A DNA stretch of 64,000 nucleotides. Origin: Halopseudomonas oceani (GTDB lineage: Bacteria > Pseudomonadota > Gammaproteobacteria > Pseudomonadales > Pseudomonadaceae). The position numbers were made by a program, and so were the translations under genes. The number at the start of each line of letters is the position of its first letter. The stretch's first letter is position 1. This document shows, in pieces, positions 1,742 through 17,852 of this stretch. Under the pieces are notes generated by a model that saw only the letters and a list, made by a program, of their open reading frames with translations, searched no databases and had not been told where the DNA came from. The stretch lies in contig NZ_PPSK01000014.1 in the NCBI RefSeq assembly GCF_002903165.1, forward strand, positions 1-64,000. The letters run 5' to 3'.

Positions 1742-3373
1742 ATGTCCATTAGAAACCTCAAAATAGGCCTCCGGGCCGGCCTCTGCTTTGCTGCCATGAC
1801 CGTGCTGATCATTGCGCTTGGCGTGATCACGGCCCTGCAAATGCAGCGCATGAACGATCTGTCCGACGAAATCGATCAAAACTGGTTGCCCGCCATCCTT
1901 TCCATCAATGATATGGGCATTGCGACCTCGCGGGTGCGCGCCTTGACGCTGCGCATGCTGACGCTGAGTGATGCCAGCGACATAAGCGACACGCGCGCAC
2001 GCCTGAACGACGCAGACCAGGCGATGGATACCGCCGAGCGGCGTTACGAAGCACTGATTTCCTCTGAGCGCGAGCGTGACGCCTATGAGGCGTTCACCAA
2101 GGCACGGGACACCTACATGACTCACCAAAGACAAGTCGTGGAACTGGTCAGCCAGGGCCAGAACGCGCAAGCGGAGGAAGTGGTCAATCGCTACCTGAAC
2201 GACGACGCCGATAATATGGTCCAGAAGCTCGCCTCCCTTACCGATATCAACGAGAAGGGGGCAACAGCAGCCACCGCCAGCAGCTCGGTCGTCTTCCGCG
2301 ACAGCCTCACCGTGGTGCTGTGTGTCGCCGCAGCCAGTCTGGTGCTGACGATTATCATGGCGATCATGCTGACCCGCAGTATCGTTACGCCGCTTGGTAA
2401 AGCGGTGCAGCTGGCCAATGTCATCGCCTCTGGCGACCTTACTCAACAGATGCAGGATCAGGGCAAAGATGAGCCGGCGGAACTGCTGGCGGCGCTAAAT
2501 ACCATGCAGCAGAACCTTGCGCAGACCATCCACGGGATCAACACCTCCTCTACCCAGCTGGCGTCGGCCGCAGAAGAGCTGAATGCGGTTACCGAAGATG
2601 CCAATCGCGGCATCCGCCAACAGAATCAGGAAATGGAGCAGGCCGCTACCGCAGTGAACGAAATGACCACGGCCGTTGAAGAAGTCGCGACCAACGCCGT
2701 CAGCACCTCGGAGGCATCGAAAGAAACCAACGAGCGCGCACAAAACGGTCAGCATCAGGTTCAGCAAACCGTCAGCTCGATCAATTCACTGACCAGCAAT
2801 ATCACCGAAACCGCTACCAGCGTGGAAACCCTGGCACAGGACGTCCGCAACATCGCCCAGGTGCTCGAGGTCATTCGCAGCGTGGCCGAGCAGACCAACC
2901 TGCTAGCACTGAACGCCGCGATTGAAGCAGCTCGAGCCGGCGAGCAGGGCCGCGGCTTTGCCGTTGTGGCCGACGAAGTGCGCGGCTTGGCGCACCGCAC
3001 ACAGCAGTCAACCGAAGAAATCGAGCGGATGATCGACACCGTGCAGAAAGGGGCCAGCAGTGCCGTTACTGCGATGCAAAGCAGCATGGGGCTGGCGACC
3101 TCGACCCTGAGCATGGCACAACAGGCTGGCGAGGCACTGGAGGATATTACCCGCGCTATTGGTTCGATCAACGAGCGCAATCTGGTGATTGCCAGCGCAT
3201 CCGAGCAACAGGCCCAGGTCGCCCGCGAGGTGGACCGCAACCTGGTCAACATCCGCGACCTGTCCATGCAGACTGCAGCTGGCGCCCAGCAGACCAACGC
3301 GGCCAGTCAGGAGCTGTCTCGCCTGGCAGTCGATCTGAACTCACTGGTAAGCCGCTTCCGGCTTACCTCTTGA
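1742..3373 (+). CDS. Methyl-accepting chemotaxis protein
   Basis: Transmembrane chemoreceptor that would control the CheA kinase. An N-terminal membrane anchor (about 10-31) precedes a periplasmic four-helix-bundle type sensor region (about 35-187). A second membrane segment (about 188-210) is followed by a HAMP domain and a long helical cytoplasmic signalling domain. The highly conserved hairpin tip ([20 protein letters not shown], from about residue 383) identifies the family clearly. GGAG lies 5 bases before the ATG. There is no CheR-binding pentapeptide at the C-terminus. The gene stands alone and converges on the heme receptor downstream. The ligand cannot be read from sequence. Confidence 0.95.
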
Positions 3374-3418
3374 GGGCGGGCCGCTGCAGCAGTCATGTCG
3401 GCTGCAGCAGCGGTCGAG

Positions 3419-5941
3419 TCAGAATGCGTAACTGACGCTGAACTTGGCGTTACGCCCCTGCGAGTAGGCGTTGTCACCGGACATCGCCGGACGATAGAAG
3501 CGGTTGAAGATGTTATCGACCGTCAGCTTGACGCTGAGGTCGGCCAATTGACCACTGCGCGGCGACCAGTCGGCGAACACCCGATGCACGTCATAACTGC
3601 CATTGGCGTAGCTATCCCAGTAGCGTTCACCACTGCCGTCATACTGGTCCGAGGGTTGCCGGTCGTTCTTGCGCACAAACTCGCCCTGCCAGCCCACCTG
3701 CATATCCAGTTCGGGAAGCTTCAGCCCCAGCATCGCCACCCATTTGGCCGGCGGGATATCCCGAGCCCAAACGTTCTGTGCCCAGGGGTTGCTGTAGGCG
3801 CCGTAATGACGGCCTTCGGTCCAGGAGTAGGACAGGCTGGCGAACAGGCGTTGGCTGTCGTAGTAACTCTCTACCTCTGCGCCACGAATGGTCAGGCCGT
3901 CCAGGTTCCGATAATTGGACAGCGGCAGCAGGTCACCGCAATTGTCGCTGATGCTGCCGCCGTTTTCTGCCTGCGCCTGACAGGCAATGGAGCGGAACTT
4001 GAATATCTCGTCACTGATCCGGTGACGGTAGAGCGTCGCCCGCACCTGCAGATTGTCGCCGGCGCTGATCAGGTCAGGCAGGGTAACCACCGCACCGCCG
4101 CGCACACCGCGCAGCCGCTCAGCATCCAGGTCGCGGCTGCTGCCGCTCAGGGTGGAGCTGCTCTGTACTTCGTACTGTTCATCCAGCACCGGTGCACGCC
4201 AGGTGCTGGCATAGTCGACGAACAGTCCGAGGTTCGGGTTTACTCGCCAGAACACTGACAACCGGGGCGACCAGCCGGTATAGGTGACCGGTCGATAATC
4301 GTGGTTCATCGCCGCATTGTTGTAGCGTAAGGCCAGGTTGCGCTTGCCCCTGTTGGTCACGTGATCGTAACGCAGCGACGGGGTAACGGTGACGTCTCCC
4401 AAGGTGATGGCATCCTCTAGGAACAGGCTGCGCACTTCCTGCTCGCCAGCCGGCATGAACTGCGGCTGATACCAGCCATAGTTGTAGTCCGGGTTGCTGT
4501 CGTAGGTAGGCAGATACATCAGCACACCGCGGGTATGCAGACGCCACTGCAGCCCGGCGGTCAGCTCATGGGCCAGCTCACCGGTGTCAAACAGACTGGT
4601 GTTGCGCAGGTCCAGAACCTTGTCGCGGTAGCGGGTGTTGATGTACTTGCCACCGGTCGAAGAGCTGTAGCTGGCATCGTCGTCACGCGTGTCCGTCTGG
4701 TCGGTATCAGACAGCGAGTAACTCAGCTCAAGATCAACCAACGGGTTGTCCTGCGGCTGGTAGTGATATTTGCCAACCCAGGTGGTGTCAATCAGCTCAC
4801 GATTGGACAACAAACGGTGCATGGCTGCCTCAAGGCTGCCATAGCGGTCGATCGACCATTTGCTGGGTACCAGAAAGGTTACGGCGCTGAACGGGGTACG
4901 CAGATCCAGCTTGCTGCGACTGTAGGTCAGCCCGAAGCTGTGTTCGTCAGTCGGGTTGAAGTTGCCCTTGAACAACACCGAGTCCTGATTCTGCGCGGTG
5001 TAGGGATAACGCTCTGGGTACAGATAGCCTTCGCCCTGATCGATGTGCCCGGCCAGCTTGATGTCATTGCTGTCGCGGTGGTTGAGATACAGCAGGCCGT
5101 CGAACATCCCATCGTCACTACGCCCGAACAGCGCGCCGGTATAGCTGCGTTGCTGGTCGTTGCTCTGGTAGCCATACTTGATCAGCGCGCCACTGTTGCG
5201 ACCCGGCTTGAGCATGTCAGTGGCATCGCGGGCCTCCATGTGGACGGTACCGCCAAAGCCACCGTTGCCAGTGTCTGCCGAGTACGGACCCTTCTCCACT
5301 TCAATCCGCTTGATCAACTCCGGCTCAATAAAAATCGTGCCCTGCTGGTAGCGCTCAAAACCGCTTTTGCTGGCACCATCGAGCGTGAACGGCACGTCCT
5401 CGGCATCACCCAGACCCCAGATGTTCATGGTCTGGCCGCCAGGCTTGGCGGAGCCGCCCATGGTCACACCCGGCAGGGTCTGCAGCAGACTGGGTATGTT
5501 GTTTGCTTGCTGCCGTTCGATATCACGGCGTCCCATCGTCGAGCGCCCGACATTGGCGGAATTGACCTCCAACCCATCGCCGACCACGGTAATGGTCTGC
5601 AGCGTCAGGCTGTTATCAGTGCTGGCAGGTACAGGCTGCGGTCGGATAACAAAGCCCTGGTTGACCGGTATCAGCTCCAGATTCGAGCCTTGAAGCAGCA
5701 ACCTCAGCGCGTCTTCCGGCTCGTAACGGCCCTGCAGGGCCGGTGCAGTAAACCCGTGCGTCTGCGCCTCATCAAACAAAATCTGCAGTTGGCCAGCCTG
5801 CGCCAGTCGGGTCAGCGACGAGGCCAGTGGCTGCATCGGCATGGACAGTTCAATCGGGGCAGCCTGCAATTGCAGGCTGACGGCAGCCAGTAACGACAGG
5901 GTCAGCCGGGACAGTGCAGAACGGGGCAGGCGGGGATTCAT
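3419..5941 (-). CDS. TonB-dependent receptor with STN domain, heme-receptor type
   Basis: Outer-membrane TonB-dependent transporter. I chose the ATG at 5941 because AAGGAG lies just upstream and a good signal peptide follows (ending LQLQAAP). After it come an STN signalling domain (about 28-95), a plug (about 115-235) and a 22-strand-type barrel ending in an aromatic residue (SVSYAF). The WRAP motif resembles the FRAP box of heme receptors of the HasR/HmuR group. The STN domain indicates transmembrane signalling to FecR, and the FecR/ECF genes lie directly upstream on the same strand. No HasA-like hemophore gene accompanies it. A ferric-siderophore substrate remains possible. Confidence 0.85.
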   Translation of the reverse strand: MNPRLPRSALSRLTLSLLAAVSLQLQAAPIELSMPMQPLASSLTRLAQAGQLQILFDEAQTHGFTAPALQGRYEPEDALRLLLQGSNLELIPVNQGFVIRPQPVPASTDNSLTLQTITVVGDGLEVNSANVGRSTMGRRDIERQQANNIPSLLQTLPGVTMGGSAKPGGQTMNIWGLGDAEDVPFTLDGASKSGFERYQQGTIFIEPELIKRIEVEKGPYSADTGNGGFGGTVHMEARDATDMLKPGRNSGALIKYGYQSNDQQRSYTGALFGRSDDGMFDGLLYLNHRDSNDIKLAGHIDQGEGYLYPERYPYTAQNQDSVLFKGNFNPTDEHSFGLTYSRSKLDLRTPFSAVTFLVPSKWSIDRYGSLEAAMHRLLSNRELIDTTWVGKYHYQPQDNPLVDLELSYSLSDTDQTDTRDDDASYSSSTGGKYINTRYRDKVLDLRNTSLFDTGELAHELTAGLQWRLHTRGVLMYLPTYDSNPDYNYGWYQPQFMPAGEQEVRSLFLEDAITLGDVTVTPSLRYDHVTNRGKRNLALRYNNAAMNHDYRPVTYTGWSPRLSVFWRVNPNLGLFVDYASTWRAPVLDEQYEVQSSSTLSGSSRDLDAERLRGVRGGAVVTLPDLISAGDNLQVRATLYRHRISDEIFKFRSIACQAQAENGGSISDNCGDLLPLSNYRNLDGLTIRGAEVESYYDSQRLFASLSYSWTEGRHYGAYSNPWAQNVWARDIPPAKWVAMLGLKLPELDMQVGWQGEFVRKNDRQPSDQYDGSGERYWDSYANGSYDVHRVFADWSPRSGQLADLSVKLTVDNIFNRFYRPAMSGDNAYSQGRNAKFSVSYAF

Positions 5942-6014
5942 CACGCTCTCCTTGGGTGTGCAGCAAGTGGATAACACCCCAGAAAACGCAGCAGCGGAGC
6001 AAACCCCCACCCCT

Positions 6015-6037
6015 CAAATGAAAAATATTTTCATTTG
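6015..6037. promoter_or_regulatory. AT-rich perfect inverted repeat between fecR and the receptor
   Basis: Two perfect 10-bp arms (beginning CAAATGAAAA, ending TTTTCATTTG) around an ATA centre, overlapping the stop codon of the fecR gene and about 74 bases before the receptor start. It is far too symmetrical to be chance. It could be an operator or a promoter element for the receptor, or an mRNA hairpin. It does not match the Fur consensus well. Confidence 0.6.
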
Positions 6038-6999
6038 CGTCCAGTCAGTTGAATCGAGCCGTCCGCCAGTTCGGTCAACTCGACCGGCAGCAACTGCGGC
6101 AACGCCCGCAGGAAACGATCCGGGTGATGGATGTCCAGCGTGCCGGACAGCCGTCGCGTCAGCAGCTCAGGATCCGTGACCCGAACCGCCTGACCACGGT
6201 AGCGAGCAAGCTCCTGCGCCAGCTCGGCCAACGGGCGGTCATGAAACACCAGCAGCCCGCTGCGCCAGCTGCCGACCTCGGCCAGCGGCAGCCGAGTGCT
6301 GCGCGCCGTTGCCGTGGCATAGTCGATCTCGATCCGTTGACCCGGCGTCAGCTCCTGAGCGGCAAGCTCGGGACGGCCCGGCTCGACCTTGACCCGGCCT
6401 TGCTCCACTGCGACCGCCAGCCCCGTGTCACTGCGCCGAACATTGAAGCGCGTACCAACGACCTCAACCTGCCCATCACCCGCCGAGATCCGGAACGGCC
6501 GCTCGGCATCCTTGGCCACCGCAAAAAACGCCTCGCCGGCAACCAGCGTTACCTCTCGCCGATCATCGTAGTAGCGCACTTCAGCCGTTGAGCCGAGGTT
6601 CAACGTCAGCTCACTGCCATCCTCCAGCAGGATATGGCGGATATCATCCAACCCGGCGCTGGCGGTGAGTTGCATCACCGGTGCTTGCCACTGCTGCAAC
6701 AGCAGCAGTCCGACGCCCAGCAGCACCGCCGCAGCCAACGCGGTAACGCTTCGCAGACGCCTGCGCCTGCTTGTCGTGATCGACCTGACCGTTGCCGGAC
6801 TGGCCAGCGCCGGCCGCTCCAGCAGATCACAGTCATCCCACAGCAGCTGTATGTCGGCATAGGCCTGGGCGTGCTCGGGACTGGCGGCCAGCCAGCGGGA
6901 AAACTCCGCCTGCTCAGCAGCCGACAATGCCCGCGCCTGACGCCGGGAGAACCAGACAGCGGCTTGCTCATCGATTTGGGCTGTGCACAAATCAGTCAC
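6031..6999 (-). CDS. FecR-family anti-sigma/sigma regulator
   Basis: Inner-membrane protein that relays receptor occupancy to the neighbouring ECF sigma factor. The N-terminal cytoplasmic region has the DUF4880-type pattern (WF.RR...AE...F..WL...PEH..AY). A single membrane segment (about 85-105) leads to a periplasmic FecR domain and a C-terminal region that would contact the receptor STN domain. GTG at 6999 is chosen because GGGAGG precedes it and it overlaps the sigma gene stop by 8 bases, implying translational coupling. Order sigma-FecR-receptor is the standard cell-surface signalling arrangement. Confidence 0.92.
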   Translation of the reverse strand: MTDLCTAQIDEQAAVWFSRRQARALSAAEQAEFSRWLAASPEHAQAYADIQLLWDDCDLLERPALASPATVRSITTSRRRRLRSVTALAAAVLLGVGLLLLQQWQAPVMQLTASAGLDDIRHILLEDGSELTLNLGSTAEVRYYDDRREVTLVAGEAFFAVAKDAERPFRISAGDGQVEVVGTRFNVRRSDTGLAVAVEQGRVKVEPGRPELAAQELTPGQRIEIDYATATARSTRLPLAEVGSWRSGLLVFHDRPLAELAQELARYRGQAVRVTDPELLTRRLSGTLDIHHPDRFLRALPQLLPVELTELADGSIQLTGRK

Positions 7000-7543
7000 G
7001 CGAACCTCCCGAACCCCCGGTCTGAGCGGTGCGCGCCTGTTTGCGGCAGTGCAGCAGAGCACTGGCAATGTGTTTTTCCACCATGCTCAGCGATATCCCC
7101 ATGCGCTCTGCCACGGCGGCTTGCGATAGTCCTTCAAACTTGTGCAGCACAAATGCCTCCTTGCGTTTAGGGGGCAAATCCTCCAACGCAATGGCCAACA
7201 GATGCAAGCGCTGTTGTTGCTCAAGCTGTCGCAATGGACCCTCCGTCTGCAAGGCGTCATCACTCTCTTCTGCGGAGTCGCTCAACTCCACCACACCGCT
7301 ACCGGTGCGCACCTGCTGGCGGCGCCAGTGGTCGTAAAGCAGGTTGCGGGCGATGCGAAACAGCAGCGGACGTGGCGGCACTGCCTGCTCATACACGCGG
7401 CTATCAAGCCAGCGAACCAGCGCATCCTGAGTCAGGTCGTCCGCGTCCTGGCTACTGCTCATGCGGCGGTCGAGAAACCGCCGCAACTCCGCACGCAGGC
7501 TCGTCAAATCAGCGCTACCAACCGGACCTGAGGCGTCACTCAC
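6992..7543 (-). CDS. ECF sigma factor, FecI type
   Basis: Extracytoplasmic-function sigma factor expected to transcribe the adjacent receptor gene. Region 2 is visible (RFLDRRMSSSQDADDLTQDA, RIARNLLYDHWRR) and region 4 has a helix-turn-helix (GLSQAAVAERMGISLSMVEKH). GTG at 7543 gives a 183-residue protein, normal for FecI. The in-frame TTG farther upstream would run into the Fur-like site and has no ribosome binding site. The exact start is uncertain by a few codons. The gene diverges from a second ECF gene across a 240-base regulatory region. Confidence 0.92.
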   Translation of the reverse strand: MSDASGPVGSADLTSLRAELRRFLDRRMSSSQDADDLTQDALVRWLDSRVYEQAVPPRPLLFRIARNLLYDHWRRQQVRTGSGVVELSDSAEESDDALQTEGPLRQLEQQQRLHLLAIALEDLPPKRKEAFVLHKFEGLSQAAVAERMGISLSMVEKHIASALLHCRKQARTAQTGGSGGSRD

Positions 7544-7639
7544 AACACAGCACCCGTACTGAACAGAAAATCGACAAGGGAAAGATCTCCGACATCGCGC
7601 GGGGGCACCACGCACGGCAATCAATAATAAATATCAAAT

Positions 7640-7658
7640 GATAATATTTATCATTATC
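7640..7658. promoter_or_regulatory. Fur box upstream of the leftward ECF gene
   Basis: GATAATATTTATCATTATC matches the 19-bp Fur consensus (GATAATGATAATCATTATC) at 16 of 19 positions. It sits about 97 bases upstream of the leftward ECF start and would make that signalling unit iron-repressed. The match is read directly; Fur binding is inferred. Confidence 0.85.
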
Positions 7659-7737
7659 CCGATATTCGACCTGCGCCTGTCAAGCCGGAGATCTGCTGCA
7701 AGCGGGATTGACAGACTCGATCAACTGGCCCAGCATT

Positions 7738-7756
7738 AATAATAAGCATTCTCATT
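7738..7756. promoter_or_regulatory. Fur-like box upstream of the rightward ECF gene
   Basis: AATAATAAGCATTCTCATT matches the Fur consensus at 11 of 19 positions and contains the typical ATTCTCATT half-site. It lies 27 bases before the ATG of the second ECF gene, a usual operator position. It is weaker than the site at 7640. Confidence 0.6.
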
Positions 7757-7783
7757 TAATTAGAGCCTGCAAGAACGCCTGCC

Positions 7784-8302
7784 ATGAACGCCAGAGATTC
7801 CGCCCTACAGCAGCAGATGGCCCAGCTCTACCATGATCACCAATCCTGGCTGTCTGCCTTCCTGCAGCGCCGGCTCGGCTGCTCACATAGCGCCGCTGAT
7901 CTGGTGCAGGACACTTATCTCCGGCTGTTGAGTAAAGGCAAGTTGCCCGAGCCAGCGCACTCGCGCGGCTACCTGACCCGCATCGCCAAAGGCTTGCTGA
8001 TAGACCTCTACCGACGGCGGCGCATTGAGCAGGCCTATCTCGACGAGCTGGCCGCTCAGCCCGAGCACACCCACCCCTCCCCTGAGCATTGCTCGGAGAT
8101 ACTTGAAGCCCTGGTAACCATTGACCGCCTGCTGCATGGCCTGCCGGTGAACGTTCGCCGGGCCTTGCTGATGCGCCGCCTGGACGGCATGAGCTATCGC
8201 GCCATCGCGGAGGAACTCGGCGTATCGATCTCCTCGGTCGAGAAGTACATCGCCCGGGCGCTGCAAAGCTGCCTGCAGGCCGCACAGGAACTCGAACGGT
8301 GA
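7784..8302 (+). CDS. ECF sigma factor, FecI/HasI type
   Basis: ECF sigma factor of 172 residues, the normal FecI length. Region 2 shows AADLVQDTYLRLL and RGYLTRIAKGLLIDLYRRRR. Region 4 shows the helix-turn-helix MSYRAIAEELGVSISSVEKYI. The gene is first in a rightward unit ending with the hemophore, Slam and heme oxygenase genes, so its likely target is the large receptor promoter. Its stop overlaps the next GTG in GTGA. A Fur-like site just upstream suggests iron repression. The heme role comes from the downstream genes, not from the sigma factor itself. Confidence 0.93.
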   Translation: MNARDSALQQQMAQLYHDHQSWLSAFLQRRLGCSHSAADLVQDTYLRLLSKGKLPEPAHSRGYLTRIAKGLLIDLYRRRRIEQAYLDELAAQPEHTHPSPEHCSEILEALVTIDRLLHGLPVNVRRALLMRRLDGMSYRAIAEELGVSISSVEKYIARALQSCLQAAQELER

Positions 8303-9243
8303 GCCAGCCGCAGCTGTCGCCCGAGCACATCCGCCAGGCCGCACACTGGCTGGCAAGACTCTGGTCGGAACAGGCAACCGCGGAGGACGAACAGGCCTGC
8401 GTGCACTGGCGCCAGAGTGACCCGGCCAACGAGTACGCCTGGCAGCAGCTGCAGCAATTGCAAGGGCACTTTGACAGCGTGCCCGCCCGCACAGGTCACC
8501 GTGTTCTTGCCTCGGGCAACAGGCTGTCGCGTCGCCAGTTACTGGTGATGACAGGGGTTATAGCGAGCGGTGCCGCCATAACGGGCATAGGTACTCGCCA
8601 GCAGTGGCAGCCATTGCTGGCCGACCAGCGCACCGCTACTGGCGAAATGCGCAGCCTGCGGCTAGCCGACGGGACACAACTCAAACTCAATACCGCGACC
8701 AGCCTTAACCTGCGCAGCGATGCAGCGGGCCATCGACTGCGGCTACTACGGGGCGAGCTGCTGGTCGAGCTGCCCGAAAACGCCCGCTCTCTGCAACTGA
8801 GCTGCCGTGACGGCGTCGTTCAGGCACACCATGGCCGCCTTTGCCTGCGCCAGCAGGCACACGACAGCCAACTGGCGGTGTATTCCGGCCAGGCCAGCGT
8901 GGAGCTGCAACGCATCGAGGGTGAAAGCGTCACGCTCAATGCTGGCGAAGCGGTCACCTTTTCCGCGCAACGGGTCCAGCCAGTCAGACCGGCAGACACC
9001 AATCAACTGGCCTGGATCGACGGCCGGCTGGTGGCAGAACGGATGCCGCTGACGCACTTTCTTGCCGAGCTGGGCCGCTACCGCCAAGGCATGCTGCGTG
9101 CCGATCCCGACCTCGCCCGGTTACAACTGACCGGCGTTTTCTCGCTGCGGAACACCGACGTCACCCTCGCCAGGTTGCCCGAGGTGCTGCCGGTGCGACT
9201 GCGCTATTTCAGCCGCTATTGGGTCAAAGTCGAGCCAGCCTGA
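8299..9243 (+). CDS. FecR-family regulator with twin-arginine motif
   Basis: Partner of the preceding ECF sigma factor. The N-terminal cytoplasmic region (HWLARLWSEQAT...W...DP.NE.AW) has the DUF4880 pattern and is followed at about residues 76-96 by a twin-arginine sequence (SRRQLL) and hydrophobic helix, then the periplasmic FecR domain and a C-terminal receptor-contact region. E. coli FecR is reported to use the Tat pathway, and the SRRQLL here fits that. Translation is coupled to the sigma gene by a 4-base overlap. At 314 residues the length is normal. Confidence 0.92.
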   Translation: MSQPQLSPEHIRQAAHWLARLWSEQATAEDEQACVHWRQSDPANEYAWQQLQQLQGHFDSVPARTGHRVLASGNRLSRRQLLVMTGVIASGAAITGIGTRQQWQPLLADQRTATGEMRSLRLADGTQLKLNTATSLNLRSDAAGHRLRLLRGELLVELPENARSLQLSCRDGVVQAHHGRLCLRQQAHDSQLAVYSGQASVELQRIEGESVTLNAGEAVTFSAQRVQPVRPADTNQLAWIDGRLVAERMPLTHFLAELGRYRQGMLRADPDLARLQLTGVFSLRNTDVTLARLPEVLPVRLRYFSRYWVKVEPA

Positions 9244-9251
9244 ACACGAAA

Positions 9252-9270
9252 GATAATAATATTTCGTATT
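9252..9270 (+). promoter_or_regulatory. Fur-like/promoter region before the large receptor
   Basis: GATAATAATATTTCGTATT matches the Fur consensus at 13 of 19 positions. It lies 8 bases after the FecR stop and about 68 bases before the receptor ATG. An internal ECF-dependent promoter would be expected here, since receptor operons of this class are transcribed by their own sigma factor. I cannot define -35 and -10 elements with confidence. Confidence 0.5.
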
Positions 9271-9337
9271 CGCATTGAGGGTTTCACCAGCTCACTCGGT
9301 GTATCGGGAAACACCGACACACGAGACAGAACCACTC

Positions 9338-12300
9338 ATGCTACGCGGCCAGACTCTACGCCATACACCCCTCACCATTGCACTGCACCTGGGATTAGGC
9401 ATCAGCTGCCTTGGCAGCAGCCTGCCGGGCTACGCCCAGACGGCAACCGCTCAGACGTTCAACATTCCGGCAGGCAGCCTGGACCAGGTACTCAACCGCT
9501 TTGCACTGGAGGCCGGCATCGAGCTGTATCTGGACGCCGCGCTTACTCAAGGCGTACAGAGCCCGGGGCTGCAGGGCCACTACAGCGTGGACCAGGCGCT
9601 CCACCAGCTGCTGGCCACCACCGGGCTGAGAGCACAACGCCAGGCTGACGGCGCATGGCGTCTGAGCGCCCTGGCCGCACAAGAAGACACCGATACCCTG
9701 ACTCCCCTGTTCATCGAAGCCGACGAATATCTGATCAGCCGCGACGAAGCAGGCCACGACAGCGTCTACGACGACAACATCTCCAGCGTTTATTCCGGCA
9801 AAGAGCAGATCGAACGCTACAAGGGTGCCAATCCGGCTGACCTGTTCAAGGGCATGCTCAACGTCTACACCGGCGACGCCCGCAACAGCGGCGGCCTGGA
9901 CCCGAACATTCGCGGCATTCAGGGCCCAGGCCGGGTGCCGCTGACCATCGACGGCACCGAGCAGGCCATGTCGGTCTGGCGCGGCTACAACGGCGCCTCC
10001 AACCGCAGCTACATCGACCCCAACCTGATCGGCGGTATCAAGGTCATCAAGGGCCCGAATATCGAGCGCAACGTCAACAGCTCGGTGGGTGGTGCCGTCG
10101 TGGCCAGCACCATCAACGTGGACGACATTTTGGCCGAGGGCGAGCGTTTTGGCGGTGAGCTAAAACTGGAGGCCGGCAACAACACCGTCAACCCGCGCAT
10201 CCCGCAGCTGCACACCGGTGAAATCTTCTACAACGTGCCGGGCTTCCCGATGAACCCGAGCGTGCCCAGCAGCGACCCTACCCTGCGCGTCAACCTCAAG
10301 ACCAGCAGCGACGACAAACTGCTGTCGGGCAACGATCACGCCTACCGGCTGGCGCTCGGCACCCGGCAGGAGCAGTTCGAGTTACTAGGCGCGTACGCCT
10401 TTCGCGAGCACGGCAACTACTTCTCCGGCAAGAACGGCGCAGGCTTCTATTCACAGCCGGATACCGGTGAGCGTACACAGGAGTACTCGCAAAGCCTGGC
10501 GCTGGATTTTCACCCTGGTGACGAGGTGCCCAACACCTCCAGCAAGATGGAATCCTGGCTGTTCAAGGCGCGCTGGAAGTTCGACGACGACCATAGCCTG
10601 ACCTTCGGTTACCGCGACACCGACATGCTCTATGGCGAAATCCTGCCTACCCGGCTGGCCAACGCCGACGACAAGGGCGCCGTGCAATGGCCGCTCAGCC
10701 ATGTGGATGCCAAAGCCTATAACCTGGAATACGAGTTCAATCCGGACAACCGCTGGATCGACCTGTACGCCAACCTCTGGACCACCCGTACCGAGAGCGA
10801 CACCTACAGCGCTGGCGGCTTTCCCAACTACGCCACCTGGGAAGACCCGGTGCTGCGTAACACCGCCGTGGCCAACGCCGATCAGAACCGCGTGGGCATC
10901 ACCCTGAGCAACCAGCTGGCGCTGGCCAGCAGCCTGGACCTGACCCTGGGCGGCAGTTACCAGCACGAGAAGCTGCGCTCCGGCGACGTTTACAACGGCG
11001 TCGACGACGGTTGGCGCATGTTTCCACGTGCCGGGCGCCGCGCCGAGAGCGAGTTCAACTTCAACTTCGACTGGCGCCCCACCGACTTTCTTACCCTGGA
11101 TCTGGGTGCCCGCTACTCATCCTACTGGGCCAAGGATGACTTTCTGGCCGAGCAGCAGGCGGCGGGCAATTTGATTAACACCGTGGTCCAAACGCACTAC
11201 GAAGCGACTTATCGCACTATCGAGACCTATACCGATGAAGAAATGGAGGCAAGGAGGGAAAGCACACGGCCACAGTTGGAAGGTTTCGGCTTCTCCGAGG
11301 CTGAAATTGCCGAGATTCTTGCCAACCTGAGCACCACCTACACCGCCACCCATGTGGTCGACTGGCGACCCGACAGCGATGGTCGCTACAGCCGAGCAAA
11401 CAATGCCTGCCTGAACGGCACCCTAGACAACATCGACAATCTTAGCGGCGACTGCACCATTGGCAGTGGCCCAGGCACAACGGCGGTCGTGGCCACCCCC
11501 GTCAAAACCCGCCGCGGTCACGACTGGACCCCGGTCGCCTCGGCCGCCCTGCGCCTGAGCGATGACAGCCGTGTCTACCTGCGCTACAGCGAGGCCGTGC
11601 GTTACCCCAGCATGTTCGAGAGCACCATCGGCTTTTCTGCCTCGCTCAACCCGTTCTACACCCTCAAACCTGAGCACGCGTTCAACTACGAGATCGGCTA
11701 CGTGCACAACCTCACCGGTCTGCTCAACGCCGAACGCTACGCCGATTTCAAGCTGGCCTACTACCAGCACCGCACCAAGGACGTGATCGAGCGCAGCACC
11801 AACTTCCTGTTCTACAACATTGACCAGCAAACCCTGCGCGGCATCGAGCTGCAAACCCGCTACGACAACGGCGGCCTGTTTGGTGACTTCAGCCTGGCCT
11901 GGAATTTGGAAAACGAAGTCTGCGACGAGAGTTCCGCCGCGCTGGCCGACCCGCGCTTTGGCTCGGTGCCCGACTGTGTCGAGAACGGTTTTATGGGTGG
12001 CTATCTGATTTCCCACGCTATCCCGCGTTACTCGGCCAACCTCAATTTTGGCGGCCGGCTGTTCAACGACAAGCTCGAACTCGGCAGCCGCGTCACCTAC
12101 TACAGCAAACACGAAAACAGCGACCTGGACGACTACAAGGCCAACGCAGAGACCAACAAACTCGCCATTTACAACCTGCCACTGTCCTGGGGCAGCGTGA
12201 CCACCTACGACGCCTACGTCAGCTTTCGGCCCCGAGACGACATCACCCTGGAGCTGGTCGGCAGCAACCTGACCGACGAGTACTACATCGACCCAACCAC

Positions 12301-12361
12301 CCGTTCCGCCGTCGCGGCCCCCGGCCGCGCGCTGAAACTGAGCCTCACGGCGCAGTTCTGA
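9338..12361 (+). CDS. Large TonB-dependent receptor with STN domain (hemophore receptor candidate)
   Basis: Outer-membrane receptor of 1007 residues from the ATG at 9338; an upstream in-frame TTG lacks a ribosome binding site. Signal peptide about 1-34, STN domain about 38-100, plug from about 140 (LTIDGTEQAM, VIKGPNIERNVNSSVGGAV), then the barrel ending LTAQF. A region of about 115 residues (about 608-725), partly helical and charged with a cysteine pair near 691 and 706, looks like an enlarged extracellular loop. Size and context resemble HphR/HasR-type receptors that take heme from a secreted hemophore, encoded 98 bases downstream. STN links it to the adjacent FecR/ECF pair. Confidence 0.88.
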   Translation: MLRGQTLRHTPLTIALHLGLGISCLGSSLPGYAQTATAQTFNIPAGSLDQVLNRFALEAGIELYLDAALTQGVQSPGLQGHYSVDQALHQLLATTGLRAQRQADGAWRLSALAAQEDTDTLTPLFIEADEYLISRDEAGHDSVYDDNISSVYSGKEQIERYKGANPADLFKGMLNVYTGDARNSGGLDPNIRGIQGPGRVPLTIDGTEQAMSVWRGYNGASNRSYIDPNLIGGIKVIKGPNIERNVNSSVGGAVVASTINVDDILAEGERFGGELKLEAGNNTVNPRIPQLHTGEIFYNVPGFPMNPSVPSSDPTLRVNLKTSSDDKLLSGNDHAYRLALGTRQEQFELLGAYAFREHGNYFSGKNGAGFYSQPDTGERTQEYSQSLALDFHPGDEVPNTSSKMESWLFKARWKFDDDHSLTFGYRDTDMLYGEILPTRLANADDKGAVQWPLSHVDAKAYNLEYEFNPDNRWIDLYANLWTTRTESDTYSAGGFPNYATWEDPVLRNTAVANADQNRVGITLSNQLALASSLDLTLGGSYQHEKLRSGDVYNGVDDGWRMFPRAGRRAESEFNFNFDWRPTDFLTLDLGARYSSYWAKDDFLAEQQAAGNLINTVVQTHYEATYRTIETYTDEEMEARRESTRPQLEGFGFSEAEIAEILANLSTTYTATHVVDWRPDSDGRYSRANNACLNGTLDNIDNLSGDCTIGSGPGTTAVVATPVKTRRGHDWTPVASAALRLSDDSRVYLRYSEAVRYPSMFESTIGFSASLNPFYTLKPEHAFNYEIGYVHNLTGLLNAERYADFKLAYYQHRTKDVIERSTNFLFYNIDQQTLRGIELQTRYDNGGLFGDFSLAWNLENEVCDESSAALADPRFGSVPDCVENGFMGGYLISHAIPRYSANLNFGGRLFNDKLELGSRVTYYSKHENSDLDDYKANAETNKLAIYNLPLSWGSVTTYDAYVSFRPRDDITLELVGSNLTDEYYIDPTTRSAVAAPGRALKLSLTAQF

Positions 12362-12459
12362 TTCACCCCACAACCAGGAGGGCACCACCGCATAAACCCG
12401 TAACCGCAACACCCAAGCAAGCGCAGTACAACTCACACATCAAACATAAGGTGATTCAC

Positions 12460-13206
12460 ATGAAAGCGATTTATCTGTCTGTTCTGGCCACCAGCCTGTT
12501 GAGTGTCAGCGCCCTGTCGCAGGCCGCCGTTATTGGTGCAGAAAGCGACGATACCAATATCGAGGTCGGCACCTCGAACGTTCCCTTCGGCCCACACACA
12601 GCTGGCCTGCCCGGAGTAGGGGTTTACACTACCGGCAAAGGTGCCAAGGTCGACTTTGCCGGCCTGAGCAGCTACAGCACCCAAAGCAACGGGGTGTATA
12701 CCCTAAGCGCGCCGATTGATGTGGACGAACCTGACCACAGTGGCATGGGCGTCTTCAACTTTGCCAAGGTCAGCAACGCCAATGTCTACTTTGGCGAGTG
12801 GTCACAAACCGGCGCCAGCGGCGACAGCAGCCGCACCGTGTACTACGTCGGCGACGACACCGGCACCAGCGTGCCCACCAGCGGCACGGCAACCTACAGC
12901 GTGGCCGGCATCAATGACTACTCCGGCAGCAACCTGATGAGCGGGACCTTCACTGCCAACTTTGGCACCAACAGCCTGACCGGTTCGCTGTCTAACAGCA
13001 GCCTGGCGGTGAATATCGGCAGCGCCAGCTTCGACAGTGCAGGCAACATCAGCAGCACAACCGCCACTGCCAACGGCTCGGCAGGCGTGGCAACCGGCGG
13101 CCAGGTCAGCGGCAACTTCTTCGGTAACGACGCAGCCGCCCTTGCGGGTATCGCCACCTTCAGCAACCGCGACTACGACACCGCCTTCGGCGGCACCAAA
13201 GACTAA
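12460..13206 (+). CDS. Hemophilin-like secreted hemophore (Slam substrate)
   Basis: Predicted secreted heme-binding protein. ATG at 12460 has AAGGTGA 6 bases upstream; an in-frame GTG 9 bases earlier does not. The signal peptide ends LSQA before AVIGAE and no lipobox cysteine is present, so the product should be soluble. The mature protein is small, Gly/Ser/Thr-rich and beta-strand-like, with a C-terminal half resembling the TbpB-type barrel recognised by Slam (VSGNFFG..AA.LAGIATF...TAFGGTKD). The precursor contains exactly two histidines (46 and 93), both in the N-terminal half where hemophilins bind heme. Receptor upstream and Slam downstream support an HphA-like role. Sequence identity cannot be computed here. 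Confidence 0.82.
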   Translation: MKAIYLSVLATSLLSVSALSQAAVIGAESDDTNIEVGTSNVPFGPHTAGLPGVGVYTTGKGAKVDFAGLSSYSTQSNGVYTLSAPIDVDEPDHSGMGVFNFAKVSNANVYFGEWSQTGASGDSSRTVYYVGDDTGTSVPTSGTATYSVAGINDYSGSNLMSGTFTANFGTNSLTGSLSNSSLAVNIGSASFDSAGNISSTTATANGSAGVATGGQVSGNFFGNDAAALAGIATFSNRDYDTAFGGTKD

Positions 13207-13245
13207 TCGCGCTTGCCTGCCACGGCCATGGCAGGTGCTGATACC

Positions 13246-13281
13246 GGGCCGAAGTCACCGCTGCAGAGGTGGCTTCGGCCC
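13246..13281 (+). terminator. Strong hairpin between hemophore and Slam genes
   Basis: 14-bp stem (one G-U pair) around an 8-base loop: GGGCCGAAGTCACC at 13246-13259 pairs with GGTGGCTTCGGCCC at 13268-13281, followed by TGCCCGTTT. A smaller 7-bp inverted repeat (CCTGCCA/TGGCAGG) precedes it. There is no long T-run, so partial termination or 3'-end protection of hemophore mRNA is more likely than full termination. Confidence 0.65.
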
Positions 13282-13326
13282 TGCCCGTTTCGGCCGCGCA
13301 ACACGGCCAGCCACGCAAGAGTTTCT

Positions 13327-14796
13327 ATGCTTCGCCACCATTTTCTTGTGCTTCCCGCCCTGCTCCTGCTACTCGCCAGCGCTGCGCTACAGGCCGCCGA
13401 CGAAGACACCAACCTGCGGCTCAACCAGCGCATTGAGGGCAACGCCAACGTTCAGGAGCAAGAGCTGCTGGAAGGCGAGTTGGATGAGCAGCCCAGCATT
13501 ACCCTCAATGGCGAAACCCTCGCCATCGGCAACAACGCCAACGATCTCGGCCGCGCGCTGTACCTGTCGCTCGGCCATCAACAATGGCAGGCCGCCAGCG
13601 CTTTTTTGCAACGCTACCGTGCCCTGCCCGACGCCGACCCCATGCTGCTGGCCTACGCCGACGGCATGTTGGCCCGCGTGCGCGGCAACTATGTCGAAGC
13701 ACAAGCGCACTTTCACCAGTTGCTGACGCTGCGCCCTGAGTTTCTGCCGGGCCAGCTGGAACTGGCGCGGGTGCTGTTCGAAGATCAGCAGGACCGCGCA
13801 GCCCAGGCCCTGTTTCAGCGGATACGGGCACGGCTTCCAGCTGATGACCCGCGCGCAGAGGGCGTGCGCACCAGCGTCGGCCGTTTTCTAGCCGCACTGG
13901 ATCAGCGCCAACGCTGGCAGGGCTCTATCAACCTCGGCGCGACCTGGAGCGACAACCTCAACCAAAGCTCCGAGAGCGACACCTGCCTGCTCAGTGCCGG
14001 CAGCGGCACCTGCATCGTGCGCCGCACCCTGCCCGAGGCGATCAGCGCCAGCGGCCTGGATTACGAGGCCACCCTAAACCGACGCGTCGCCCTCAGCGGC
14101 CATCACGGCGTTTACGCCCGCGCCTTGCTGTACGGCTACAGCTATCAAGACCACAGCGAGTACAACGAAAGCACGCTGATCACCAACCTGGGCTACAGCT
14201 ACCGCGACGCGCGCAACCACTACAGCCTGGCGCCGAGTTTCGAGACCAACCGGGTCGGCAACGAGGCCATGTACTCAGCCTGGGGCACACGGGCCGAGTG
14301 GCTGCACACCCTAAGCCAGCGCAGCGCGTTCAAGCTGGAGGCCAACTACCGCGACCTGCGCTACCGCGAGCAGGTGTATCGCTACAACAACGGTGACAAC
14401 AGCGCGTTGTACTTCACCACCTGGCACCAACTGTCGCCGCGCTGGACGCTGTTTGGCGGGCTGGACCTGAGTGAGCGGCGTACCGCAGAAAGCGCCTACG
14501 GCTATCTCCAGAGCGGTGTCAGGCTGGGGGCGTCAATGACCCTGCAGAGCGGCCTGCGTACGAGCCTGTTCAGCAGTTTCCGCCACCGCGAATACAACGA
14601 CTTCAACGCGCTGCTCGGCAGCCGCCGCCGCGATGATGAGTCCAGTCACACGCTGATCATCAGTGCGCCTCGCCTGGCGCTGCTCGGTTTCACCCCCAAC
14701 CTCTTGCTGAAACACACCCGGGTAAGCAGCAACATCGACTGGCTCTACTCCTATCAGCGCACACAGCTGAGCCTGCGTATGGAAAAGATTTTCTGA
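13327..14796 (+). CDS. Slam outer-membrane translocon (DUF560, TPR plus barrel)
   Basis: Surface lipoprotein assembly modulator-type protein, expected to move the hemophore across the outer membrane. ATG at 13327 is chosen because it opens a clear signal peptide (ending AALQAADED); a longer frame upstream would cover the intergenic hairpin. Residues about 60-190 have TPR-like helices (YADGMLARVRGNYVEAQAHF, LELARVLFEDQQDRAAQALF). From about 200 to 489 alternating beta-strands form a barrel with a C-terminal Phe (RMEKIF). A cysteine pair lies near 219-229. Length of 489 fits the family. Position after the hemophilin-like gene is the known cargo-translocon arrangement. Confidence 0.88.
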   Translation: MLRHHFLVLPALLLLLASAALQAADEDTNLRLNQRIEGNANVQEQELLEGELDEQPSITLNGETLAIGNNANDLGRALYLSLGHQQWQAASAFLQRYRALPDADPMLLAYADGMLARVRGNYVEAQAHFHQLLTLRPEFLPGQLELARVLFEDQQDRAAQALFQRIRARLPADDPRAEGVRTSVGRFLAALDQRQRWQGSINLGATWSDNLNQSSESDTCLLSAGSGTCIVRRTLPEAISASGLDYEATLNRRVALSGHHGVYARALLYGYSYQDHSEYNESTLITNLGYSYRDARNHYSLAPSFETNRVGNEAMYSAWGTRAEWLHTLSQRSAFKLEANYRDLRYREQVYRYNNGDNSALYFTTWHQLSPRWTLFGGLDLSERRTAESAYGYLQSGVRLGASMTLQSGLRTSLFSSFRHREYNDFNALLGSRRRDDESSHTLIISAPRLALLGFTPNLLLKHTRVSSNIDWLYSYQRTQLSLRMEKIF

Positions 14797-14912
14797 TTGG
14801 GCAAAAAAACCTGCTCGGCCATTACGGAAACGGGGTGCCTCGTTCGTTAAGTAGATAGAGACGTTGAACAGCACCGTCACCCAACCTCATCCCCCGCATG
14901 CAAGGATCGACC

Positions 14913-15539
14913 ATGACCTCGGCAGACATCATCACCGTGCCCCTGAGCCGCTACCTGAAAGAACAGACCACCTCGACCCACGAGAGCCTGGACCAGCGCA
15001 TCATGGCGCTGGCGCCGTTCTCAAGTCACGCCCGCTTTGCCTGCTTCCTGCGTATGCAGCTGCGCCTGCACCATGCCACCGCACCGCTCTACCAGCAGCC
15101 GGAACTGCAGGCGTTGCTGCCGGGTCTAGCCGACCGCAATCGGCTGCCGGCAATCCTGCTCGACTGCGCTGATTTCGCCATCAGTCAGGAGCAGCAGGAA
15201 CAAGACCGCCTGGCAGGGCAGGCAGCAGGACCGAAGAATGTCGCGCAGGCGCTGGGGTGGCTCTACACCCATGAGGGCTCGACGCTGGGTGCTGCCTTCC
15301 TGCTCAAGCAGGCCCGCGCAGAGCTGGGGCTCAGCGAAACCTTTGGTGCCCGCCATCTGGCCGGCCACAGCGGCGGTCGCGGCCTGCACTGGCGCGAATT
15401 CAAGCAGGCGCTGGACAGCCTGCCTCTGTCCGCCGAAGAGCGGGCCGAAGCGGTGACCGGTGCGCGTGACGCCTTCGCCTTTGTTCGCACGGCGGTAGAG
15501 GAGCTGATGGCAGGCCAGCAACCGGGCGCGGCGGTCTGA
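14913..15539 (+). CDS. hemO: Heme oxygenase
   Basis: Cytoplasmic enzyme that cleaves heme to biliverdin, CO and iron. ATG at 14913 follows AAGGA with 6-base spacing; another ATG 15 bases upstream does not. His23 (TSTHESLDQR) fits the proximal heme ligand and the distal-helix signature is seen in THEGSTLGAAFLLKQ. The 208-residue length fits bacterial HemO/PigA. The gene lies 116 bases after Slam, so imported heme can be degraded by a product of the same locus. Regiospecificity cannot be read from sequence. No heme ABC importer lies in this window. Confidence 0.93.
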   Translation: MTSADIITVPLSRYLKEQTTSTHESLDQRIMALAPFSSHARFACFLRMQLRLHHATAPLYQQPELQALLPGLADRNRLPAILLDCADFAISQEQQEQDRLAGQAAGPKNVAQALGWLYTHEGSTLGAAFLLKQARAELGLSETFGARHLAGHSGGRGLHWREFKQALDSLPLSAEERAEAVTGARDAFAFVRTAVEELMAGQQPGAAV

Positions 15540-15544
15540 GCGCT

Positions 15545-15919
15545 ATGCTGATACGCCTTGGCTGGCGCCTGCTGGCGCTGACATTCGTCGGGCTCGGCTT
15601 GATCGGTGCTGTGCTGCCGGGCATGCCCACCACCGTTTTCATGCTGCTGGCGGTCTGGGCCGCGGGCAAGGGCTGGCCGCCCCTGGCTGCTTGGCTGATC
15701 AACCACCCGCGCTTCGGGCCACCGATCCAGCAATGGCAGCAGCACCGGGCAATACCGCGCCGCGCCAAGTGGCTGGCCGCAATCAGCATGTTCGTCAGCA
15801 TGCCTCTGATCTGCCTGAGCGCTCCCAGTCCCTGGGTGCAGTGGCTGGTGCCCTCCAGTATGTGTCTGGTGCTGCTCTGGCTGTGTACCCGGCCGGAGTC
15901 AACCGGCGTTGGGGTCTGA
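15545..15919 (+). CDS. DUF454 (YbaN-like) inner-membrane protein, copy 1
   Basis: Small membrane protein of the DUF454/YbaN family, molecular role unknown. It begins 5 bases after the hemO stop and is probably co-translated. Two hydrophobic hairpins (about 4-40 and 78-115) flank a conserved central part: GAVLPGMPTTVFMLLAVWAA, then HPRFGPPIQQW and the basic HRAIPRRAKW. A second family member lies at 32695-33057. The position suggests a link to heme use or heme-stressed membranes, but that is only inferred from neighbourhood. Confidence 0.85.
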   Translation: MLIRLGWRLLALTFVGLGLIGAVLPGMPTTVFMLLAVWAAGKGWPPLAAWLINHPRFGPPIQQWQQHRAIPRRAKWLAAISMFVSMPLICLSAPSPWVQWLVPSSMCLVLLWLCTRPESTGVGV

Positions 15920-16112
15920 GCCACGGCAAGCCGTTATCTTGCTCAACGAGTCGACATTTCTATCGACCGGCGACCACAGGCTGGCGCATTTGCGGTAGAG
16001 TCGCCGCGCCCGAGTGAAAAACCCCGCTGGTTGACCCCGCAGCAGCGCCTGCCTGCGGCGGGCAGGGCACTTCACAGTGAACGTGAAACCTATTTCAGGA
16101 GAATACCGAGAT

Positions 16113-16829
16113 ATGAAATCCCCCCGCATCCAAGCAGCTCTGCTGAGCCTGATCGCCGCCGGCTTGCTGACAGCCACCCAGACCCACGCCTTCGGCCTGG
16201 ATTCGCTCAAGTCCGCCGCCGGTGCCGCCCTCAGCGCCAACGGCCAGGGCAGCGATAACGCCGGTGCCGACACCCTGGCACAACAGCAGGACGCGCTGAT
16301 GCAACGCTTCAACGCCAGCATGAACAACATGCTGACCGCCCAGGCCAAGACGCTGGAAGCCACCGGCCAGTCCGACCTCGCCAGCCGTACCCTGGCCGCT
16401 GCTGCCAACTACGCCCAAGGTGCTACCGCCGATGGTGCAACGATTGCAGCTGACACCGAACTGACCAGCAGCAACCAGGCGCTGATCCAGAGCCTGCTGT
16501 CGCAGACCGGCACCCTGAACGGCGAAAACCGCAATACCCTGGCCGAAGCCATCCCCTACTATCAGAACGGTCTGAAGGAAGGCTCCATGCTGAGCGGCGC
16601 TTTCCAGAGCTGGCTCGATAGCGCCAAGGGTAGCGCCGGTTCCCTGCTGTCCAACCCGATGGCAGCTGGTGAACTGACCAGCAGCATCAGCGAAGCCAGC
16701 ACCGTCGCCCGCAATCTGCCCAGCTTGATCAATGCCTGGAGCGGTACCTCGCAGTCGTTCCTGAGCCTGGCCAACGCCAACCAGTTGGACGCCGGCCAGA
16801 TCCAGTCGATCCTCGCTGCGCTCAACTGA
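16113..16829 (+). CDS. Exported alpha-helical protein of unknown function
   Basis: Not recognised. The start at 16113 (AGGAG 11 bases upstream) opens a signal peptide ending TQTHAFG. The mature protein is rich in Ala, Ser, Gln, Leu and Asn, has no cysteine, no lipobox and no further membrane segment. It is predicted largely helical with low-complexity stretches. A strong terminator follows, so it forms a single-gene unit separate from the heme locus. Likely periplasmic. An earlier in-frame GTG at 16077 is less likely because no signal peptide would start there. Confidence 0.75.
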   Translation: MKSPRIQAALLSLIAAGLLTATQTHAFGLDSLKSAAGAALSANGQGSDNAGADTLAQQQDALMQRFNASMNNMLTAQAKTLEATGQSDLASRTLAAAANYAQGATADGATIAADTELTSSNQALIQSLLSQTGTLNGENRNTLAEAIPYYQNGLKEGSMLSGAFQSWLDSAKGSAGSLLSNPMAAGELTSSISEASTVARNLPSLINAWSGTSQSFLSLANANQLDAGQIQSILAALN

Positions 16830-16846
16830 GTTCGGCCTCGCGCTAC

Positions 16847-16876
16847 CCGGGCGCCGTTCGTGCGCCCGGTCTTTTC
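16847..16876 (+). terminator. Rho-independent terminator
   Basis: Perfect 8-bp stem CCGGGCGC/GCGCCCGG (16847-16854 and 16862-16869) with a 7-base loop, followed by TCTTTTCC, 18 bases after the stop of the exported-protein gene. Confidence 0.85.
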
Positions 16877-16997
16877 CTCAACACCCTCACCCGTTGTTAC
16901 AGACTGTCGCCCCGGCGACAGATCAGGCATGACACCTGTCAATAAGGTGTTAGCCCGCCCAGGCAAATCAGCCTGCTCAACAACGGAGAACAAGAAA

Positions 16998-17852
16998 ATG
17001 GGTTTTGCTTCCAAGGTGGTATGGATCACCGGCGCCTCTTCGGGCATTGGTGAAGCGCTGGCCAAGGCCATGCTGGCGCAAGGTGCCAGCGTTATCCTGT
17101 CGGGTCGCCGGGCCGACGCACTGCAGGCACTGGCTGACACAGCACCGGACAACACACTGGTCTTGCCCTTTGAGACTACCGATTACGCTCGCCTGCCTGA
17201 GCTGGTTGAGCAAGCCTGGGCCTGGCAGGGACGCATCGACCTGCTGATCAACAACGCCGGCATCAGCCAGCGCAGCCTCGCGTTGGACACCGGCCTGCAG
17301 GTCTACCGCCAACTGATGGAGGTTGACTACCTCGCCCCGGTGGCGCTGACCCAGCTGCTATTGCCACGCCTGGTCGAACAGGGCAGCGGCCAACTGGCCG
17401 TCGTCAGCTCGGTCGCGGGCAAGATCGGCGTCCCGCTGCGCACCGGCTACTGCGGAGCCAAGCACGCGGTCGTGGGTTACTTCGAGGCGCTGCGCGCGGA
17501 GGTCGAGCAGGCTTATGGTATTGGCGTCAGTATCATCCTGCCCGGCTCGGTACGTACCGCGATCGCCGCCAACGCACTCGAAGGTGCCGGCAACGCGCGT
17601 GGTCGCTCGGATGCCAACATCGAGAACGGCATCGACCCGGATGACGCAGCGCGTACCATCCTCGACGAACTCAGCGCTGGCAAGCACGACATCATCATCG
17701 CTGAGGGCATGGAGCTGATGGCACTGCAGATGCGCGCCAGCGATCCCGAGCGCACCTTCGCGTTCACCGCCGCAGAAGGGGCCAAACTGGCGCAGCAACG
17801 GGCAGAGCTTGGCGCAGGCGCCTCTATTGATCCCAACGCCGTCAACACCTGA
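16998..17852 (+). CDS. Short-chain dehydrogenase/reductase
   Basis: NAD(P)-dependent oxidoreductase of the classical SDR family. The N-terminal dinucleotide-binding motif is TGASSGIG (about 11-18), followed by NNAG. The catalytic set is visible as VVSS and YCGAK (Ser, Tyr, Lys). Length of 284 is typical. ATG at 16998 has GGAG 9 bases upstream; an upstream in-frame extension overlaps the preceding terminator and is rejected. Substrate is unknown. The overall pattern resembles DHRS7-like reductases. Confidence 0.9.
   Translation: MGFASKVVWITGASSGIGEALAKAMLAQGASVILSGRRADALQALADTAPDNTLVLPFETTDYARLPELVEQAWAWQGRIDLLINNAGISQRSLALDTGLQVYRQLMEVDYLAPVALTQLLLPRLVEQGSGQLAVVSSVAGKIGVPLRTGYCGAKHAVVGYFEALRAEVEQAYGIGVSIILPGSVRTAIAANALEGAGNARGRSDANIENGIDPDDAARTILDELSAGKHDIIIAEGMELMALQMRASDPERTFAFTAAEGAKLAQQRAELGAGASIDPNAVNT

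Follow-up and report, generated by a model that had tools for sequence, protein, structure and literature searches.

Does the locus at 7784-15919 (forward strand) of a 64,000-nucleotide stretch of Halopseudomonas oceani DNA (contig NZ_PPSK01000014.1, positions 1 to 64,000; hereafter, the window) encode a complete route for heme uptake, in which a hemophilin is exported by a Slam protein and sensed at the cell surface? A first-pass annotation had proposed such a system under the control of an extracytoplasmic function (ECF) sigma factor. Based on domain searches, structure prediction and comparison with related loci, we suggest that the locus very probably encodes a Fur-repressed, cell-surface-signalled and Slam-dependent hemophore uptake system of the type represented by the Acinetobacter baumannii hemO cluster.

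According to Pfam and NCBIfam matches, the locus comprises seven co-directional genes for, in order, a FecI-type ECF sigma factor, FecR, HphR, HphA, Slam, HemO and a DUF454 protein, separated by -4, 94, 98, 120, 101 and 5 bp. All seven genes are open with intact domains. The rightward seven-gene unit of the first-pass annotation thus stands, with every gene at or near the place given to it.

Predicted fold and heme-ligand positions of HphA

The hphA gene (12460-13206, forward strand) encodes a predicted secreted hemophilin of 248 aa with matches to HphA_N (7.7e-36) and HphA_C (8e-32), both far above the Pfam cut-offs. The barrel also matches the TbpB-type family PF01298 (2.9e-7; residues 129-249 of a 251-aa reading). 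In a phmmer search of the PDB (E up to 10), six of six sequences found are named hemophilin, haemophore or transferrin-binding-protein-like solute binding protein, the best being HphA of Stenotrophomonas maltophilia (8gmm_A, 1.5e-51).

For structure prediction and alignment, we used loci from a pattern scan of species genomes, in which the best 80 of 84 relatives were taken; 79 named loci make up the comparison set. The alignment has 67 rows: besides the window and L024, it includes every named locus except L049, L055, L057, L059, L062, L075, L076, L080, L085, L087, L088, L092, L100 and L102 (65 of 79). The AlphaFold2 model from these rows has a predicted local distance difference test score (pLDDT) of 89.4 and a predicted template modelling score of 0.86; a first prediction from 12 rows reached a pLDDT of 47 and was discarded. 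The model has the N-terminal clamp and 8-stranded C-terminal barrel of hemophilins. In Foldseek, ranks 1-8 are hemophilins or the Haemophilus haemolyticus haemophore, and TbpB chains also turned up. In VIA-align, the model matches S. maltophilia holo-HphA (8gmm) with Z 32.3 (2.0 Å, 215 residues, 53% identity), followed by the proteins of Vibrio harveyi (32.1) and A. baumannii (30.4) and two Haemophilus proteins (27.3 and 26.9). From this range of 26.9-32.3 for hemophilins, Z falls to 17.4 at the next fold, HpuA. The model is nearest to the holo-heme structures 8gmm and 8gm3. Thus, the TbpB-like C-terminal barrel of the first-pass annotation is borne out, and in the comparison of predicted structures that it called for, the best PDB matches by both sequence and fold are hemophilins.

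HphA is free of cysteine, and H46 and H93 are its only histidines. Because it has no cysteine, HphA cannot be a lipoprotein, in agreement with the lipobox-free secreted protein originally described; together with a signal-peptide-like start, judged by eye, this gives the signature of soluble export. A. baumannii HphA binds heme via H43 and H106 (PMC8560813). In the phmmer alignments, H46 aligns exactly with a histidine of 8gmm, and H93 aligns with the histidine in the PPSHS stretch of the A. baumannii chain. By hand count, the latter histidine sits 63 residues past the loop histidine of that chain, which equals 106 minus 43. Judged from these alignments, H46 and H93 correspond to the two heme-ligating histidines of A. 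baumannii HphA, the ligand roles being those reported in PMC8560813. Of the 67 aligned sequences, window included, 63 have histidine at column 46 and 64 have it at column 93. The exceptions at column 46 are the partial matches L094 and L097 as well as L095 and L104, which have no histidine there; at column 93 they are L095, L104 and L024, in which the histidine is displaced by one residue.

The hemophilin-like proteins of L104 (Stutzerimonas kirkiae) and L095 (Pseudomonas parafulva), which lack both ligand histidines, may bind another ligand. No FecI/FecR match lies near the STN receptor of L104, and the L095 gene has no HphR match in its vicinity. In L033, L051, L065, L068, L083, L086 and L091, there is more than one hphA-like match per locus.

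Slam and the distribution of the hemophilin locus

The slam gene (13327-14796, forward strand) encodes a predicted outer-membrane protein of type XI secretion. It has the combination of a TPR region (TPR_Slam, 3.9e-23) and a DUF560 barrel (SlipAM, 2.4e-53) that defines Slam and that had been read from the sequence before. We took the start to be the ATG at 13327, which is followed by a signal-peptide-like stretch; the list of open reading frames has a TTG at 13213. PF04575 has no other match in this genome, and a slam gene lies within 500 bp 3' of hphA in 79 of 79 named loci. In a quick tree of 89 rows, the Slams of the three Halopseudomonas loci group together on a branch separate from the Pseudomonas/Stutzerimonas clade; deeper placement is weak.

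HphA_N is present in three of 37 genomes of the genus, in 13 of 398 genomes (3 of 19 genera) of the family Pseudomonadaceae and in 11 of 390 genomes (7 of 143 genera) of the order, with the own genome included in each count. The first-pass annotation saw here a potentially complete cell-surface-signalled hemophilin system in the family; the gene set supports this, but with 13 HphA_N-bearing genomes it is not the sole case. With Pseudomonas abyssi set aside, 13 of the 14 loci titled Pseudomonas have the arrangement FecI-FecR-HphR-HphA-Slam without a HemO match.

The STN receptor and its FecI/FecR pair

At the head of the unit, fecI (7784-8302, forward strand) encodes a protein with Sigma70_r2 (9.9e-14) and Sigma70_r4_2 (9.8e-18) domains that matches TIGR02937 (sigma70-ECF) above cut-off, while strong matches to FecI-type NCBIfam models stay under the curated cut-offs. 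It overlaps by 4 bp with fecR (8299-9243, forward strand), the product of which is a FecR-type anti-sigma factor (FecR, 8.6e-14; DUF4880, 2.3e-12). Next follows hphR (9338-12361, forward strand) for a HasR-like TonB-dependent receptor with STN, plug and barrel regions; we took the ATG at 9338 as its start, and the list of open reading frames has a TTG at 9275. As expected for the very large STN-type receptor initially noted, HphR has 1007 aa and an STN domain (2.1e-10), and its best PDB relatives are HasR chains (4.7e-33). ECF sigma factor, FecR and STN-bearing receptor are encoded together, i.e. the locus contains a signalling set of the FecIRA type.

Among the named loci, 75 of 79 were suitable for asking whether STN domain and regulators go together; L094, L095, L097 and L098 were excluded for want of a usable hphR (L094 contains a stub only). 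STN was counted as present if the match of hphR to the window protein begins at residue 60 or before. FecR is encoded directly upstream of an STN-bearing hphR in 40 of 41 loci, the sole exception being S. kirkiae L104, and FecI and FecR are both present in 38 of 41. By contrast, none of the 34 loci with an hphR without STN has a FecI or FecR match. Thus, across these 75 loci, the STN domain of the receptor goes with an adjacent FecR (40/41 vs 0/34).

HemO, DUF454 and other routes to heme

The hemO gene (14898-15539, forward strand; alternative ATG at 14913) encodes a heme oxygenase (PF01126, 8.2e-23) that is closest to Neisseria HemO (1j77, 2.9e-36) and the Pseudomonas aeruginosa enzyme (8.5e-32) among PDB entries; the genome has no other PF01126 match. 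Five bp 3' of hemO lies the gene for a small membrane protein of the DUF454 family (15545-15919, forward strand; PF04304, 7.9e-35).

HasA or Phu systems had been named as the usual route in pseudomonads, a view that fits the present findings, in that the genome has no match to HasA (PF06438) or to HemS/PhuS (PF05171). The PF06438 search works in this genus, because HasA was found in congener G022 (1.5e-59), and an E. coli positive control was matched in the PF05171 search. Has and Phu routes were considered for this genome and rejected on the lack of PF06438 and PF05171 matches. In G022, matches to HasA, FecI/FecR and an STN-receptor-like protein and a HemO-DUF454 pair lie within 19 kb (L139, C17:95000-114000). 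This locus is a Has-type solution within the same genus.

DUF454 directly adjoins HemO in 10 of the 16 genus genomes with a PF01126 match, own genome included and the match in G023 being a fragment. The two are not side by side in G006, G009, G013, G020, G032 and G034, and the HemO proteins of G006, G009, G013 and G034 are only 27-35% identical to that of the window. Among the named loci, DUF454 lies at most 200 bp 3' of HemO in 19 of the 23 that carry HemO. HemO and DUF454 have already been reported as neighbours of Slam: among 1,111 Slam neighbourhoods, a heme oxygenase was found in 137 and DUF454 in 118 (PMC12282271). A second DUF454 gene is present in the window at 32701-33042 (forward strand), and the only PF01126 heme oxygenase of the genome is not beside it.

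A divergent module and a five-gene block

To the left of fecI, on the opposite strand (3419-7624, reverse strand), lies a second heme-type set of FecI, FecR and STN receptor, which goes beyond the genes listed by the first-pass annotation. It consists of fecI (6992-7624; Sigma70_r2, 2.2e-12; Sigma70_r4_2, 2.5e-14) and fecR (6031-7068; FecR, 1.8e-21), the true starts of both being uncertain, and a gene for a PhuR/HxuA-like TonB receptor with STN, plug and barrel regions (3419-5941). This receptor scores 410.6 bits with the heme-receptor model TIGR01785, above the cut-off of 316.85, and matches PhuR (8the) at 1.7e-28. At E 1e-50, six of the 37 genus genomes, own genome included, encode this receptor.

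G001 and G012 keep the entire double locus. In G010 and G017, the left module stands directly beside hemO-DUF454, fecI-fecR-hphR-hphA-slam are absent from that site and there is no HphA_N match in either genome. In G011, only the tail of hphR is left before the slam-hemO spacer (L136, 11330-11539; 170 bp by blastn, 65 codons by tblastn), and its HemO shares 98% identity with the G001 protein; from its sequence, G011 looks like it bears the scar of a loss of the hemophilin block. Because filled, empty and tail-only congeners exist, the five-gene block behaves in these alignments as a presence/absence unit at one site. In the tree of the left receptor, filled and empty loci interleave, with G000/G001 grouping with the empty G010 and G012 with the empty G017, and therefore at least two gains or two losses of the block are implied. 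The HemO tree, in which several forks are weak, instead pairs G012 with G010.

Compared with P. abyssi MT5 (L028), the region from the 3' end of hphR to slam is 81-98% identical, apart from HphA residues 166-215 (window 12955-13104) with only 55% identity. Outside of this region, identity is lower, i.e. 67-73% for fecI/fecR, 78% for hemO and 82% for DUF454. In this comparison, the region from the 3' end of hphR to slam has the appearance of a segment swapped between members of the genus, which encloses a hypervariable part of the barrel.

Regulatory and intergenic elements

A predicted Fur box is located in the divergent intergenic region at 7640-7658 (no strand assigned). Compared with the 19-bp Fur consensus, it has 2 mismatches on the reverse and 3 on the forward strand; at 2 mismatches, 0.00 matches were expected by chance. 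Two congeners have exactly the same right half (TTATCATTATC), the left half varies, and inspection of the G010 and G017 spacers by eye shows Fur-like sequence. A second, candidate Fur-box-like element upstream of fecI (7735-7757, no strand assigned) is conserved in three species and has no match to the consensus at up to 3 mismatches.

Further downstream, the 98-bp leader of hphA (12362-12459, forward strand) is strongly conserved in the two related loci compared, with 96 of 98 bases shared with P. abyssi MT5 (98%) and 84 of 98 with H. pelagia (86%). The 120-nt hphA-slam gap contains a predicted 14-bp stem-loop (13246-13281, forward strand); the minimum free energy of the gap is -59.2 (z -2.67), as good a value being reached in 2 of 200 shuffles, and a similar but weak stem is predicted in two congeners (z -1.51 and -1.41). 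In this folding model, the stem-loop is a possible step-down in expression between hphA and slam. A terminator scan was not used, as it found 5 candidates against 7.2 expected. Rfam gave no match at gathering thresholds in 3000-17000.

A model for signalled heme uptake

We suggest the following model. At low iron, Fur would leave the divergent promoter region, and fecI and fecR would be made. HphA would cross the inner membrane via Sec, be cut by signal peptidase I and be passed through the outer membrane by Slam. Outside the cell, it would hold heme between H46 and H93 and pass it to HphR. TonB energy would then drive heme inward, while the STN domain would signal through FecR to FecI, and FecI would raise expression of hphR-hphA-slam and possibly of hemO too. 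Finally, HemO would open the heme ring and free the iron, with DUF454 as a candidate helper for the passage of heme across the inner membrane.

Several points weigh against this model. The case is drawn from sequence and model. The heme-receptor models TIGR01786 (3.8e-67) and TIGR01785 (6.5e-64) match HphR under the NCBIfam cut-offs. There is no TonB-related gene in the unit, in which slam and hemO are only 101 bp apart, while A. baumannii has such a gene (PMC10483418) and the reconstitution in E. coli included it. A sigma-70 promoter scan of both strands at 7550-16200 found 0 promoters against 1.3 expected, although a TTGACA at 7708-7713, conserved in three species, is visible despite this; an ECF promoter was not identified, and a conserved block in the 94-bp gap upstream of hphR could not be named. 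Four of the 34 loci without STN have a short flank, such that FecI/FecR could fall outside the stretch, and 31 of the 34 are from Photorhabdus or Xenorhabdus; the association of STN with FecR is phylogenetically clustered and its counts are therefore not independent. The search for heme degradation was confined to PF01126, and heme ABC transporters lie outside the searches made.

How, then, do other explanations fare? HphA might act mainly as a scavenger and weapon against competitors, starving neighbours of heme. H. haemolyticus hemophilin acts in this way, cutting colonization by non-typeable H. influenzae via heme sequestration (PMC10964412). However, hphA is part of an uptake unit that has a receptor, a signalling pair and HemO of its own, and therefore self-feeding is the simpler role; both roles could hold, and we consider it improbable that the weapon is the main one. 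It is very unlikely that HphA, though built on the hemophilin fold, carries something other than heme, be it a different tetrapyrrole or a metal. Neither ligand position is kept in S. kirkiae L104 or P. parafulva L095, and the cobalt receptor protein CrpC is among the known cargo of type XI secretion systems (PMC12282271), but the window HphA has both histidines and no others, a heme oxygenase is encoded in the same unit and the closest structures are holo-heme. That the locus is silent or on its way to loss is also very unlikely, for although its presence is patchy (3/37 genus genomes) and G011 has nothing but the tail of hphR next to hemO, the seven window genes are open with their domains, H46 and H93 kept.

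Returning to signalled, Slam-dependent uptake, we tentatively propose a further step, which we regard as somewhat less likely than not, in which heme-loaded, Slam-exported HphA may itself serve as the signal inducing its own operon via the STN domain of HphR, FecR and FecI. If so, autoinduction of the Has type would have been built from an unrelated TbpB-type hemophore, and hemO-DUF454 would be drawn into this control wherever the five-gene block separates hemO from the shared promoter region. As an extension of this idea, DUF454 is a candidate partner for HemO at the inner membrane when heme enters.

The known A. baumannii type of hemophilin-Slam locus, headed by ECF/FecR, is hereby extended to marine Halopseudomonas, and to a genome in which HasA and HemS-type matches are absent and PF01126 heme oxygenase is present once. 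These environmental strains are convenient models for asking whether a Slam-exported hemophore can serve as a signalling ligand and how heme travels over the inner membrane, with the empty-site congeners as natural controls.

Comparison with known systems

The locus was compared with several known systems (further sources: PMC12772443, PMC7970244 and PMC7367214). Its closest counterpart, the A. baumannii hemO cluster, is listed in a table of PMC10483418 as ECF sigma factor, anti-sigma factor, hphR, hphA, hsmA, a TonB-related gene, heme oxygenase and a hypothetical protein. Regulators, receptor, hemophore, Slam and heme oxygenase follow in the same order in both; the HphA proteins have the same fold with 42-43% identity in structural alignment, and both loci are present or absent at a fixed site (PMC10483418). 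Because the A. baumannii cluster has it (PMC10483418), the ECF/anti-sigma-headed arrangement is not new, and by gene content the architecture is not new in kind. S. maltophilia HphA (8gmm) is the closest solved structure to the window HphA.

The Has system (HasI-HasS-HasR-HasA) likewise combines a hemophore with an STN receptor and an ECF/anti-sigma pair, and HphR is nearest to HasR chains; however, HasA is an unrelated hemophore that is exported by type I secretion (PMC11442138), and PF06438 has no match here. The divergent module has the same kinds of parts as HxuIRA of P. aeruginosa, i.e. ECF sigma factor, anti-sigma factor and STN heme-type receptor (PMC12670364), and we use that name only as an analogy by kinds of parts. 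In Xenorhabdus and Photorhabdus, loci of the Hrp type also have a hemophilin beside Slam and a TonB receptor (HrpABC in PMC8406197), but in the order hphA-slam-receptor, with a receptor without STN and no FecI/FecR or HemO match. In the window, hemO is followed by DUF454, where the A. baumannii cluster is listed with a hypothetical protein; in contrast to that cluster, the intergenic region is also used by another heme-type signalling module, which runs divergently. This additional module and the nested block are local features of the locus.

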